This document shows, one piece after another, positions 33,535-36,883 of a stretch of DNA of 36,883 nucleotides. The position numbers and the translations under genes are program-made. Origin of the DNA: Actinomycetes bacterium (lineage in GTDB: Bacteria; Actinomycetota; Actinomycetes; Nanopelagicales; Nanopelagicaceae). The notes beneath the pieces were generated by a model that made no database searches, was not told the DNA's origin, and worked only from the letters and a program-made list of their open reading frames with translations. How positions within the stretch are numbered: the stretch's first letter is position 1; every line of letters begins with the position of its first letter. The stretch is taken from NCBI GenBank assembly GCA_919902125.1, contig CAKKQM010000020.1:1-36883 (forward strand), in the 5' to 3' direction.

Positions 33535-34761
33535 ATGCGAGTGGTTACGATCGAGCAACTTAAATCGATCCTCGCCAGTCTCCCAGATAATCCACGTATC
33601 GTGGCATCAGGCAATTTCGCGACACCTAATACCCTTCTAAAACTTGCCAATGAGGTGATCCCCGAGTTCCGCCTGCATATGCTCAATGCGCAAGTAGGAA
33701 TCCCTGATCGCGAAGGCGTGACATACGAGACCGCATTTGTCGGTGAGGGAATGCGCAACCATCCACGCCTTAATTACATTCCATCGCGCCTAAGTCTCTT
33801 ACCTATCCTCTATCGCGATCACTACCGGCCAAATGTCGTGATGTTGCACGCCTCGCCGCCTCGTTTTGACACTGTAAGCCTGGGCACCGAAGTCAATATC
33901 TTGCCATCTGCTATAGAAGCCGCGCGGGCCCATGACGGCATTGTGATTGCGCAATCAAATGTGCGCATGCCTTATACCTATGGCGATGCGCAGATTTACG
34001 AAAATGAGATCGATTACCTGATTGAAGTTGATGAGCCACTCGTGGTCAAACCACCCACGCTTCTCAATGACACGGCAGAAGAAATCGGCACTCGTATTGC
34101 TGCGTTGATCGAGGATAACTCCACCCTGCAACTCGGTATCGGCGCCGTTCCCGACGCCGTTCTGGCGGGTCTTACCAATCGCAAGGGTCTACGTATCTGG
34201 ACGGAAATGTTTAGTGATGGAGTTCTGGATTTATATAAAGTTGGCGTTCTTGATGATGAAATCCTGCTCACAGCATCTTTTGTTTTCGGTTCACAAGAGC
34301 TTTATGACTGGCTCAACCTCAATCGCAAAGTGAGGATGATGCGCACCGAACGGACCAATGACCCAAGCCAAATTGCGCGTCAAGCAAAGATGACCAGTAT
34401 TAATGCGGCCCTTGAGGTAGATCTCTTCGACCAGGCTAATGCCAGTCATGTCCGTGGTGAGATTTACTCCGGCTTTGGCGGATCAACTGACTTCATTGTT
34501 GGATCGCTACATTCGCGCGGTGGTCAATCCTTCATGGCGCTTCCCTCGTGGCATCCCAAAGCCAATGTTTCGACAATAGTTCCGCGCTTAACCTCTAATG
34601 TTACAAGTTTCCAGCATAGTTATGTCGCCACAGAGTATGGAATCGCTCATTGTTTTGGCCATTCACAGAATGAGCAAGCCCGCAACATCATCGAAAAAGC
34701 TGCGCATCCCAGTGCGCGCGATGAACTCCGTGCAAAGGCCGCTGAGTTCCGCCTGATTTAG
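33535..34761 (+). CDS. Acetyl-CoA hydrolase/CoA-transferase family protein
   Basis: This 408-residue protein has the fold of acetyl-CoA hydrolase/4-hydroxybutyrate CoA-transferase enzymes, which move CoA through a glutamyl-CoA thioester. The substrate loop GIGAVPDAVLAGL (about residues 202-214) and the catalytic E224 in WTEMFSDGV are visible. The C-terminal domain has GEIYSGFGGSTDF, a conserved glycine-rich CoA-binding segment, and YVATEYGIAH. Start ATG 33535 is set by the putative leaderless promoter. Whether it hydrolyses acyl-CoA or transfers CoA to acetate, succinate or another acid cannot be told. It could feed acids made by the neighbouring aldehyde dehydrogenase into central metabolism, which is inference. 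Confidence 0.88.
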   Translation: MRVVTIEQLKSILASLPDNPRIVASGNFATPNTLLKLANEVIPEFRLHMLNAQVGIPDREGVTYETAFVGEGMRNHPRLNYIPSRLSLLPILYRDHYRPNVVMLHASPPRFDTVSLGTEVNILPSAIEAARAHDGIVIAQSNVRMPYTYGDAQIYENEIDYLIEVDEPLVVKPPTLLNDTAEEIGTRIAALIEDNSTLQLGIGAVPDAVLAGLTNRKGLRIWTEMFSDGVLDLYKVGVLDDEILLTASFVFGSQELYDWLNLNRKVRMMRTERTNDPSQIARQAKMTSINAALEVDLFDQANASHVRGEIYSGFGGSTDFIVGSLHSRGGQSFMALPSWHPKANVSTIVPRLTSNVTSFQHSYVATEYGIAHCFGHSQNEQARNIIEKAAHPSARDELRAKAAEFRLI

Positions 34762-34869
34762 GCTCGATACCCAGCACTGCATTTCTACACTCATGGGGGC
34801 TGGCACTTAGTGATAAAAAAGGCAGGTATTCACAGGTGAGAATCGTGTGGACAGGAGTACAGTTTTTTT

Positions 34870-34942
34870 AGGAGGGGGGAGATAACTTTCTTGGCACGAC
34901 GAAAAATCAACTGCCAAGCCCACAATCGATCTCTCCCCTCCT
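34870..34942 (+). promoter_or_regulatory. Large nested hairpin pairing an SD-like and an anti-SD-like sequence
   Basis: The arm at 34870-34883 (AGGAGGGGGGAGAT) pairs over 14 bases with 34929-34942 (ATCTCTCCCCTCCT), with a single G-U wobble. Inside, CTTGGCA (34890-34896) pairs with TGCCAAG (34912-34918). The left arm contains a perfect AGGAGG and the right arm mimics the 16S rRNA 3' tail (CCTCCTTT). It ends 24 bases before a 35-residue gene. There is no T-run after it in either direction, so it is not a simple terminator. Confidence 0.6.
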
Positions 34943-34966
34943 TTAAATAATTCAGGGATGACGCAA

Positions 34967-35074
34967 ATGTCAGGAAGATGTGAACATACTTTTGTAGCCG
35001 ATAAAGATGGCGAAGTGACGTGTAGCAAATGTGGCGATAAAGACGATGAGATGGAACAAGGCGATTCAGGATAG
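34967..35074 (+). CDS. 35-residue zinc-knuckle-like microprotein
   Basis: A short frame from ATG 34967 encodes 35 residues starting MSGRCEHTFVADKDGEVT. It carries C5-x-H7 and C19-x2-C22 (TCSKCGD), a pattern able to bind one zinc, and ends with a strongly acidic tail. AGGG at 34954-34957 is a possible ribosome binding site; an in-frame ATG at 34958 would add MTQ. A strong terminator follows 22 bases after the stop, and a structured leader precedes it, both supporting a real transcription unit. I do not recognise a named family; small CxH-CxxC ribbons often contact nucleic acid or proteins. Confidence 0.65.
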   Translation: MSGRCEHTFVADKDGEVTCSKCGDKDDEMEQGDSG

Positions 35075-35096
35075 ATAAGTCTGTTCATGGAAACAC

Positions 35097-35127
35097 AAAA
35101 ACCTCGAGATTATTTCTCGAGGTTTTT
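35097..35127 (+). terminator. Strong intrinsic terminator
   Basis: AAAAACCTCGAGA and TCTCGAGGTTTTT pair perfectly over 13 bases around a 5-base loop, TTATT. The T-run on the plus strand serves the microprotein gene; the A-run on the left would let it also stop minus-strand transcription. Confidence 0.9.
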
Positions 35128-35180
35128 GGTAGTAACTCAATTGATTGAGCACCGGTACGGCCTTAACGAAGTATCAAAAC

Positions 35181-35271
35181 TATAATACGGTCTTTGGTAG
35201 CTTCATTGAGTTTGTGGAGAATTGAATAATCACTTTAAGTAATCATTCACATGACCTTTTTTTCTCCACAA
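35181..35271. repeat. Nested inverted repeat with nearby TATAAT; possible small RNA
   Basis: TTGTGGAGA (35212-35220) and TCTCCACAA (35263-35271) form a perfect 9-base inverted repeat. Inside lie TGAAT/ATTCA (35223-35227 and 35245-35249) and ACTT-t-AAGT. A perfect -10, TATAAT, is at 35181-35186, and a seven-T run ends at 35263. A short RNA from about 35193 to 35263 is conceivable, but no -35 is seen. No gene is present from 35128 to 35331. Confidence 0.4.
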
Positions 35272-35318
35272 GGACTCTTTGTAAGAGATTTCCTCAAAAC
35301 TTTGTATGGCCAGATAAT

Positions 35319-35341
35319 GAGGGCTTATGATTCACTTCTTG
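35319..35341. repeat. 23-bp direct repeat, left copy
   Basis: This 23-base sequence recurs at 36215-36237 with two mismatches and begins GAGGGCTTAT. It covers the stop codon region of the gene at 35332-35490. The two copies bracket the pair of unknown genes at 35332-36115. Confidence 0.75.
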
Positions 35342-35490
35342 TTTTCCTTCAAGGTTTCAGGCATCACTGACACGATCCGTTCATAAAGTTCTGCTGCGAA
35401 GGTACCAATCTCCGCATCGGTCATTTTGTCGATCCCTTGAGGTAATTCAAAGTAGTGGCGATCAGGGGTTGGCCCTTCTGGTTTAACCAT
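35332..35490 (-). CDS. Small hypothetical protein, translationally coupled
   Basis: From ATG 35490 the frame encodes 52 residues starting MVKPEGPTPDRHYFELPQG and ending in a Lys-rich helix (ETLKENKK). The start overlaps the stop of the upstream Cys-rich gene by 8 bases, and GGAG lies 6 bases before it, so translation is probably coupled. A longer in-frame start at 35538 would overlap that gene by 56 bases and is less likely. No family recognised. The predicted structure is one amphipathic helix (about residues 23-44) after a Pro-rich N-terminus. Confidence 0.6.
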   Translation of the reverse strand: MVKPEGPTPDRHYFELPQGIDKMTDAEIGTFAAELYERIVSVMPETLKENKK

Positions 35491-36115
35491 TTTGCACTCC
35501 GGCCAATCTGCGATTCTCTTGCGCCGTTGCCGATTCAAATAGAGCCATGTTCGGCCATCCAGTGAATCGGAGAAATGCTTGCTCGGTATTTTCTTTACTT
35601 ATAGGAAACTTCTTCTCCCACGCTCTTACGCCGATATATTTGTCCTCTGCCCATTCGGGCACGGTCTCCCATAACTCTCGGGCAAGCAAGCGACCCCACT
35701 TGAAAATCGATTCCCATTCTGTGGTCCATCGATCTATGAATTTGTTCATCCGCTTCAGCTCAAACTCGCTTTTACTGAAATGTTTGGCCAAGGCGTAGTT
35801 TGTGTTTGACATCCGACTCATTTGAAATTGCCGATTTAGTCGCTCTTCCATCTGACCGTTGAACTCAAGGCAACAAGGGCACCCTTGCCACCAAAACGGC
35901 TGCCCCTCGCGCACGGCTCCTCGCGCGCAGAGAACGCACAAGAGAGCGACGGTGGGATCAAAAGCTAGTGGATCGTTCAATTCGATCGCAGGCTCACACG
36001 CGCATCGAGCCCAGCCCTGCACCAGCGCCGTGAGTTGAAAACATGCGGTACAGACGAACAACTTCTCGTTCGGAAAACGGTTCCTTGCGTGCTCTACTTC
36101 AGCGAAAGTAATCAT
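35483..36115 (-). CDS. Cysteine-rich hypothetical protein with two paired Cys motifs
   Basis: The protein has 210 residues from ATG 36115, which has a perfect GGAGGT 6 bases upstream; the frame is open further upstream but has no such signal. The first 85 residues hold nine cysteines arranged C22-x2-C25, C38-x-C40, C60-x2-C63 and C79-x-C81-C82. This spacing suggests two interleaved zinc sites, as in cross-brace or double zinc-ribbon folds. The rest is helical, Trp- and Lys-rich (WTTEWESIFKWGRLLARELWE). I recognise no family. Protein composition and codon use look unlike the core genes, consistent with acquired DNA. Confidence 0.7.
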   Translation of the reverse strand: MITFAEVEHARNRFPNEKLFVCTACFQLTALVQGWARCACEPAIELNDPLAFDPTVALLCVLCARGAVREGQPFWWQGCPCCLEFNGQMEERLNRQFQMSRMSNTNYALAKHFSKSEFELKRMNKFIDRWTTEWESIFKWGRLLARELWETVPEWAEDKYIGVRAWEKKFPISKENTEQAFLRFTGWPNMALFESATAQENRRLAGVQNG

Positions 36116-36214
36116 AAGTAAACCTCCGGCTCTTCCCGGGCACCGTGTATGCCCAAGCAGCTCTACCTCTGGGACCACCGGGTGCGAAGGACGCGGTTGG
36201 TAGCGAGTCAGCCA

Positions 36215-36237
36215 GAGGGCTTATCACTCACTTCTTG
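36215..36237. repeat. 23-bp direct repeat, right copy
   Basis: It matches 35319-35341 at 21 of 23 positions in the same orientation. Weaker similarity continues for about 60 bases to the right (shared TCAGG, CACTGACAC, GGTAC and ATCTC at similar spacing), so the copies may be ends of duplicated genes rather than a short target site. Confidence 0.7.
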
Positions 36238-36380
36238 AGCAATTGGAAAGATATCAGGGGCCACTGACACTCGACCACATTCAGATCATCGTTGTCATAG
36301 GTACTTGCTATCTCTTGAAAGGACCAGAATTCAAGATTTGCGGCACGTATCTGGTTAAGAGCATGCCACTGCTGTCTCAC
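36228..36380 (-). CDS. Possible 50-residue hypothetical protein
   Basis: A frame from GTG 36380 to TGA at 36228 encodes 50 residues, starting VRQQWHALNQIRAANLEFWS and ending FQLLKK. GGAG lies 6 bases before the GTG. Its last codons (AAG AAG TGA) fall in the 23-bp repeat, just as in the gene at 35332-35490, so it may be a diverged relative sharing the 3' end. The 5' end overlaps the plus-strand helicase remnant. Coding status is uncertain. Confidence 0.35.
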   Translation of the reverse strand: MRQQWHALNQIRAANLEFWSFQEIASTYDNDDLNVVECQWPLISFQLLKK

Positions 36381-36640
36381 TTCTATCTCCGGACTTCGAC
36401 ATTATTCTCGGCGCGTATATCGCAGATGAATGCGAGAAGCAGACTTTCTCCAGCTAACCGAGGCGCAGTTCTCAATCCTGGACATGGCTAGGACCATTCC
36501 AAAGTTTGCAATTCTCGGTGCCGCCGGCTGCGGCAAAGAGTTCGTTAAAAAACTGGTGAACGTAGGAGCGCATTCTTCTGAATGAAAGCGCGTTGAAAGA
36601 GCTCTTTCGCCGTGGGCTTGATATCGACGTCATGATTTAG
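36359..36640 (+). pseudogene. Frameshifted remnant of a UvrD/NERD-type helicase
   Basis: Three protein-like segments lie head to tail in different frames: 36359-36454 (SPDFDIILGAYIADECEK), 36430-36582 (ADFLQLTEAQFSILDMA and FAILGAAGCGKEFVKKL) and 36566-36637 (ERILLNESALKELFRRGLD). The middle one matches the start of the helicase core of nuclease-related-domain (NERD)/UvrD-like helicases, where LTxxQxxxLD precedes a Walker A loop. Here Walker A reads GAAGCGKE, with Glu in place of the Thr/Ser. With no full frame and the rest of the helicase missing, it is a decayed fragment. The family assignment rests on pattern memory. Confidence 0.5.
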
Positions 36641-36734
36641 TTTCAATTCACAACGCTTTATTTCTGCACTGTTTCAATCTGTTAGACGTTTGCGACCTAG
36701 ATTTCGCTGCAAAATCCGTCTATCAATAAAGGAA

Positions 36735-36771
36735 CCCCGGCAGCTTGACTTTCGTCAGGGGCCCACCGGGG
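36735..36771 (-). ncRNA. Structured 37-nt RNA hairpin, copy 1
   Basis: As RNA on the minus strand, CCCCGGTGG pairs with CTGCCGGGG (9 pairs, two G-U). An asymmetric loop of GCCCC follows, then TGAC-GAAA-GTCA with a GNRA tetraloop. It matches copy 2 at 34 of 37 positions. The 94 bases between the helicase remnant and this element hold nothing I recognise. Confidence 0.6.
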
Positions 36772-36801
36772 TAACTGGGTTGAATAGTAGCAAAAGTAAG
36801 G

Positions 36802-36838
36802 CCCCGGCAGCATAACTTGCGTCAGGGGCCCACCGGGG
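36802..36838 (-). ncRNA. Structured 37-nt RNA hairpin, copy 2
   Basis: The outer stem and GCCCC bulge are the same as in copy 1. The inner part is TGAC-GCAA-GTTA, again a GNRA tetraloop, with one G-C pair replaced by G-U. It begins about 5 bases after the predicted transcription start and is 30 bases from copy 1. Confidence 0.6.
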
Positions 36839-36850
36839 CGCGTGGTACAT

Positions 36851-36878
36851 ATTCTACGTGATTGGAGAACGTTGTCAA
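36851..36878 (-). promoter_or_regulatory. Sigma70-type promoter reading into the tandem hairpins
   Basis: On the minus strand a perfect -35 TTGACA (36878-36873) and a -10 TAGAAT (36856-36851) are separated by 16 bases. The transcript would start near 36843, directly before hairpin copy 2. This is the best promoter match in the window. Confidence 0.6.
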
Positions 36879-36883
36879 GACAA

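Follow-up and report, generated by a model that had tools for sequence, protein, structure and literature searches.

Two near-identical RNA hairpins stand directly behind a promoter at the very end of a contig, and the question is which RNA they belong to, on which strand it is made and which gene it serves. The locus lies in a window of 36,883 nt, by which we mean the whole stretch of DNA that was analysed; this stretch makes up contig C20 in an assembly of 1.63 Mb, and both end at position 36883. Two 37-nt direct copies occupy positions 36735–36771 and 36802–36838. They are 92% identical, have the three differences that the initial annotation had counted and are 67 nt apart from start to start. 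Both copies fold identically on the minus strand (−19.9 and −17.7 kcal/mol), where all three differences preserve the structure, as had been claimed: one exchanges a GAAA tetraloop for GCAA, one turns a G-C pair into a G-U pair and one falls on an unpaired position. In the direction of the predicted RNA, hairpin 1 (36802–36838, minus strand, GCAA tetraloop) is the first unit and hairpin 2 (36735–36771, minus strand, GAAA tetraloop) the second, and comparison of the repeats delimits a spacer of 30 nt between them (36772–36801, minus strand). The spacer includes a pyrimidine- and U-rich tail, CCUUACUUUUG, after hairpin 1 (36791–36801, minus strand), and another such tail, UUCCUUUAUUG, follows hairpin 2 and is the probable 3' end (36724–36734, minus strand). 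No hairpin copies besides these two were found in the window's own genome.

The promoter reported in the initial annotation is present on the minus strand. It consists of a −35 box TTGACA (36873–36878) and, 16 nt from it and 12 nt before hairpin 1, a −10 box TAGAAT (36851–36856), which places the predicted transcription start at approximately 36844 on the same strand. The promoter is strong and probably constitutive. Its −35 box overlaps the start-codon region (TTG TCA A) of a putative divergent gene, whose first codons, TTG TCA AGA CAA (36872–36883, plus strand), follow a GGAG ribosome-binding site at 36864–36867 on the plus strand. The contig stops 11 nt past the TTG at 36872, and the window holds only the first 12 nt of this frame.

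The frame was assigned as the putative start of an AbiF-type toxin gene by homology with a complete genome of the same genus (G003), which came from a DNA search of 151 genomes of the family. G003 carries three hairpin sites within 15 kb (C2 773506–773607 and 786837–786939 with two hairpins each, and 787729–787765 with one), and each immediately precedes the 5' end of a paralogous Abi_2/HEPN gene of about 216 codons that is read in the divergent direction. Promoter boxes of the TTGACA-16-TAnAnT kind stand at the equivalent place in all three sites, TTGACA or a close variant recurs there in many further relatives, and the tail after hairpin 2 of the window reappears in the copy at 786837–786939. 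The three proteins share the HEPN motif RNRIAHH; against Pfam Abi_2 (PF07751, cut-off 25.6 bits) two of them score 27.4 and 27.2 bits and the third, at 23.7, falls just under. The homologous G003 gene (C2:787051–787695) opens TTG TCA AGC CAA, two further G003 copies support this start, and GGAGGAG and GGGGG are found at the place equivalent to the ribosome-binding site. Since a search of the other contigs of the window's assembly did not find the toxin gene, we infer its presence in this genome from the conserved start. The initial annotation had looked to a shared class of downstream genes as support; the class is indeed shared (Abi_2), but its members do not lie downstream: they are divergent and start inside the RNA promoter.

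The window is colinear with G003 from 23.6 to 34.8 kb, and the gene order is scrambled from 34.8 kb on (34761–36883). G003 has a tRNA, hipA, a PemK/MazF-like gene and the three AbiF modules in the homologous region. Because the order is scrambled and G003 holds toxin and defence genes there, we place the 3' end of the window in a variable toxin/defence island. Several copies in such an island, together with hipA and mazF-like genes, would suit a palindromic repeat of the REP or MITE kind, mobile and near toxin genes by chance. However, all copies found in G003 sit at Abi_2 starts, no other copy exists in the window's own genome, and the matches track toxins from phylum to phylum with a fixed promoter spacing, rather than being scattered through random contexts as the initial annotation had allowed for. 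We therefore regard a mobile repeat as extremely unlikely.

Hairpins with CCCCGG...CCGGGG arms recur upstream of Abi_2 genes in the window's family and at 80 loci in many phyla. A covariance model, R1, was built from 20 hairpins of other genomes, with the window and its genus left out. The R1 consensus, read opposite the gene strand, is CCCCGG-NN-NCGC-CYCU-GCC-NNNN-GGC-AN-GCGN-CCGGGG, that is, from 5' to 3', an outer stem, a middle stem, an unpaired CYCU, an inner hairpin, two bases and the closing strands of the middle and outer stems; the CYCU and A positions are near invariant. In the window, R1 matches exactly the two hairpins and no other site, with moderate scores (22.6 bits, E 0.0096, for hairpin 1; 25.0 bits, E 0.0031, for hairpin 2). 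The pair is not a chance occurrence, since the module and its promoter recur in a genome of the same genus and a model made without the window matches both of its sites.

The covariation expected of a functional RNA is strong in the hairpins of other genomes. Among the 20 sequences, 95.3% of the cells form standard pairs and 9 of the 13 pairs have changed on both sides, a result reached by none of 500 shuffles, while slid-alignment controls were 32–49% paired. An alignment of 65 distinct rows gave 94.8% paired cells, 90 double-change cells and a covariation score of 0.330 against 0.149 for shuffles; the 20-sequence test is the fairer of the two because the 65-row alignment was fitted to the model. 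These changes also bear on whether the locus is a degenerate CRISPR array of two 37-nt repeats and a 30-nt spacer. The lengths are CRISPR-like, and a nearby Rfam CRISPR match is sub-threshold only. Many near-identical repeats with unique spacers were not encountered: most relatives have a single copy and the window has two. The stems covary between genomes, the partner is Abi_2, and the neighbouring proteins that we examined included no Cas products. Because relatives are mostly single-copy and their stems covary, we reject a CRISPR array, to which we assign a negligible probability.

In total, 74 hairpin copies were recovered with R1 at E values of 1 or less. The hairpins stand in numbers of one to three next to an Abi_2 HEPN gene, and R1 lies antisense beside the toxin start at 57 of the 80 relatives (Actinomycetota, Pseudomonadota, Acidobacteriota, a cyanobacterium and others). 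Named strains of Rhodococcus, Frankia and Micromonospora are among the relatives with R1. A scan that ignored the toxin, across 296 genomes of the phylum and without ASCERTAINMENT, returned eight matches in five genomes, six of which (in three genomes) adjoin an Abi_2 gene; the matches at L128 and L131 have no toxin within 1.5 kb. These two (L128:1501–1537 and L131:1501–1540) are well-scoring hairpins and may be orphan RNAs or decayed modules. Conversely, 11 of the 296 genomes carry a close toxin, and R1 lies antisense at its start in four of them (L176, L178, L179 and L181). Two others (L182 and L183) have an R1-like hairpin in sense, by eye at the same 11-nt distance from a promoter on that strand, and the rest of this small unbiased sample has another RNA or none that we recognized. 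Since the sense copies of L182 and L183 keep the promoter distance, the promoter-hairpin cassette seems to exist in both orientations. Additional R1 hairpins lie on the opposite strand at the 3' end of the toxin gene in L176 (2217–2252) and L179 (1369–1404 and 1451–1486), so that RNAs stand on either side of some toxins.

The strand of the RNA separates several readings. A TAnnnT box ending 10–14 nt before the hairpin, nearly always 11 or 12 nt, occurs in 56 of 74 copies on the RNA strand but in only 1 of 74 on the opposite one. Behind the hairpin, the next 11 nt are 57% T on the RNA strand versus 30% on the other (consensus TTTTGYYTTTY). At 12 well-paired positions read opposite the gene strand, G-U cells outnumber A.C cells by 38 to 10, a ratio that is not a formal probability because the rows are related. 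Among relatives, a toxin start ATG TCA A often reads, in reverse complement, as the −35 box TTGACAT, and a search for a sense-strand promoter before the hairpins showed no enrichment (score 6.6 vs 7.0 in shuffles). These results support the minus strand, opposite the toxin gene, as the RNA strand. They also agree with the earlier claim that the plus-strand reading breaks the structure.

We had initially planned to treat the hairpins as a plus-strand leader of the toxin, an idea that the promoter and G-U tests led us to abandon. In its general form, this reading takes them as a cis-regulatory leader (attenuator or riboregulator) of the toxin mRNA, much as the sense-encoded RCd22 of Clostridioides difficile partly is. 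The hairpins do lie just before the ribosome-binding site of the toxin, and RCd22 resides in the sense leader of abiF (PMC12373285). On the plus strand, however, pairs are lost, as the 38:10 ratio indicates, the two window copies fold differently from each other, and it is the minus strand that carries the promoter and U-tail. A cis-acting leader is therefore very unlikely.

Another reading is a type I antitoxin, in which an antisense RNA prevents translation of the toxin mRNA by pairing with its 5' leader while the hairpins only stabilize the RNA. The RNA is encoded opposite the toxin leader, a toxin mRNA starting upstream would be perfectly complementary to it, and the RNA promoter overlaps the toxin start. 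Yet antisense pairing needs neither a conserved fold nor a conserved core, whereas the stems covary and the CYCU and A positions hardly vary. The search described above showed no promoter for the toxin ahead of the hairpins, the equivalent promoter-hairpin cassette stands in sense in L182 and L183, and AbiF RNAs bind the protein (PMC12373285). We consider type I action improbable, although it deserves more weight than a leader.

The toxin family was characterized through its relatives. In 30 aligned relatives RNRIAHH is invariant, as are several aromatic positions, and the catalytic HEPN motif RxxxxH, in its RNxxxH form, is present in these 30 and in the three G003 copies. An AlphaFold2 model of one relative (L041) has a mean pLDDT of 94.3, and its best match in the PDB, the only one with a probability near 1, is 8vz6, the PbAbiF dimer bound to its ncRNA (probability 1.00, TM 0.67 on the query, 13% identity, E 0.055). 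The model thus supports the AbiF fold for the family. DARPin matches in a toxin-profile search of solved structures scored low and were judged spurious. In PADLOC, PD-T4-5 (PDLC04038) was the best profile for all tested relatives (26–68 bits), followed by AbiD. PD-T4-5 is an abortive anti-phage gene that was selected from an E. coli plasmid, acts against T4 and is described as a distant relative of AbiF/D (PMC9519451). Like the toxins studied here, it is of the Abi_2 type and is reported to be toxin-antitoxin-like, the membership of our toxin family resting on one profile; it differs in that the parts of its description consulted do not mention an RNA partner (PMC9519451). Set against PD-T4-5, loci with a gammaproteobacterial RNA type (L116 and L135–L138) have a divergent RNA and a separate terminator.

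The closest described RNAs are those of AbiF. The initial annotation could not match the hairpins to a known family, and as far as Rfam goes this stands: abiF (RF03085) gave no match in the window or at the R1 loci tested, at gathering and loose thresholds, and a scan of the window at the same thresholds returned only SAM-IV, a separate element. It stands no further, for the hairpins appear related to a described family, Rfam abiF. As R1 loci tested gave no match, we do not file R1 as a member of RF03085. By eye, the RF03085 consensus (CCCGCC-A-AGC-CUCU-CAACGAU-GCU-CAAAUC-GGCGGG) and R1 appear to have in common an outer stem, a middle stem and a GCCUCU...AUGC core, which reads GGCCCCU in the window. 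The AbiF ncRNAs (RF03085/RCd22/PbAbiFr) are likewise hairpins of about 37 nt beside an Abi_2 HEPN gene, with a 6-bp outer stem, a short 5' bulge and a short middle stem, and RCd22 also comprises two units, of 33 and 35 nt, 19 nt apart. The two groups differ in that an inner GCC/GGC hairpin of R1 replaces the CAACG loop of abiF and R1 lacks the 6-nt 3' bulge. They also differ in orientation. RCd22 is partly co-transcribed with C. difficile abiF and shares its promoter (PMC12373285), and an Rfam abiF match near an AbiF gene in the genome G466 is in sense as well; both stand upstream of abiF. In the window, in G003 and in 57 of the 80 relatives, in contrast, the RNA runs divergently, and the start codon of the toxin coincides with its −35 box. 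We found no divergent AbiF RNA in the open-access papers that we searched, although a mention in the structural AbiF/Cas13 paper (Zilberzwige-Tal et al. 2025) is possible. The divergent R1 RNAs, compared over many bacteria, suggest a conserved and so far unlisted version, which gives the AbiF RNA family a broader range of orientations, shapes and hosts.

The type III toxin-antitoxin systems ToxIN, CptIN and TenpIN resemble the module in their tandem short RNA repeats, which would neutralize an RNase toxin by binding it; here, however, the toxin is a HEPN protein and not of the ToxN fold, the RNA is on the opposite strand and there are only one to three units. In Cas13/type VI CRISPR, too, a HEPN RNase is held by a short repeat hairpin RNA, whereas the module here has no spacers or guide, no adaptation genes were seen, and there is one HEPN domain of about 215 aa. 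AbiF is a proposed ancestor of Cas13 (PMC12737573). Given that AbiF with its RNA is placed at this ancestry, the divergent group would show the RNA part rewired, duplicated and reshaped while the HEPN partner stays.

Taken together, covariation, strand signals and the Abi_2 partnership single out the antitoxin among the functional RNAs first proposed (a small RNA, a tandem riboregulator or an RNA antitoxin-like element). We conclude, with good though not full confidence, that this locus supplies the RNA component of a divergently arranged toxin-antitoxin or abortive-infection module of the AbiF type (type III-like). The anatomy of the RNA gene, its strand and structure, the gene partnership, the HEPN motif and the modelled AbiF fold of the family are established directly. 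On this antitoxin reading, the minus-strand promoter would drive a short two-hairpin RNA, both units having a conserved outer stem, middle stem and unpaired CYCU core, and the Abi_2 HEPN ribonuclease toxin would be encoded on the other strand with its start inside the RNA promoter. By analogy with AbiF and type III systems, the hairpins may bind the HEPN dimer and keep its RNase site closed. A drop in RNA supply, for example when transcription is taken over by a phage, would free the protein, which is expected to outlive the RNA, to cut RNA and stop growth. The layout further suggests that RNA polymerase at the RNA promoter covers the toxin start and may limit toxin expression.

More tentatively, and with rather less than even confidence, we propose that the AbiF/PD-T4-5 "single-gene" defences are widely two-part, and that a promoter-plus-hairpin cassette usable in either orientation has its −35 box placed on the toxin start, where bound polymerase would make the antidote and hinder toxin expression in one. 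If the two-part reading is true, a loss of host transcription on infection would at once release the toxin and permit its expression. An unannotated RNA component may accompany defence genes that are listed as lone proteins (PD-T4-5-like, Abi_2), and constructs with the gene alone, or with a leader of unrecognized content, would be misread. The R1 covariance model and the promoter rule make such RNAs findable across phyla.

Related toxins also have other RNA types. A distinct RNA motif, whose core is GCCUCC, takes the equivalent divergent position in Gammaproteobacteria, their plasmids and viral contigs, with a promoter and a separate intrinsic terminator (L116, L135–L138, L099, L105, L109, L110, L150 and L156). 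The viral contigs L143 and L147 have an antisense hairpin, e.g., CCCCGG GUA AGCCUCUUCACAAUGCUU CCGGGG followed by CUUUUUU, with a promoter and U-run and an abiF-like core that lacks the inner hairpin; we regard these as intermediates. The small E. coli plasmid pToe3-3 (L175:580–922), like about 35 others similar to it, retains the gammaproteobacterial module's RNA body and terminator but has lost most of the toxin gene. Within the window's own family, L018, L019, L020 and L021 have another hairpin type upstream of Abi_2, CCCCGG-AGCGGCA-stem-CUUCGU-CCGGGG on the gene strand, which R1 scores weakly or not at all, and L021 has three hairpins of two types.

A SAM-IV riboswitch (36124–36240, minus strand, 55.6 bits) lies near the hairpins, directly before an uncharacterized frame that runs from an ATG at 36115 to 35483. 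The hairpins were considered as a leader of this gene, an idea that was rejected as two of the three G003 copies have no adjoining SAM-IV. The homologous G003 island has two SAM-IV copies, one of which precedes the equivalent gene. In the window, two 23-nt stretches within 35319–35373 repeat parts of the SAM-IV region at 36215–36270 with 78–91% identity and resemble a decayed second copy.
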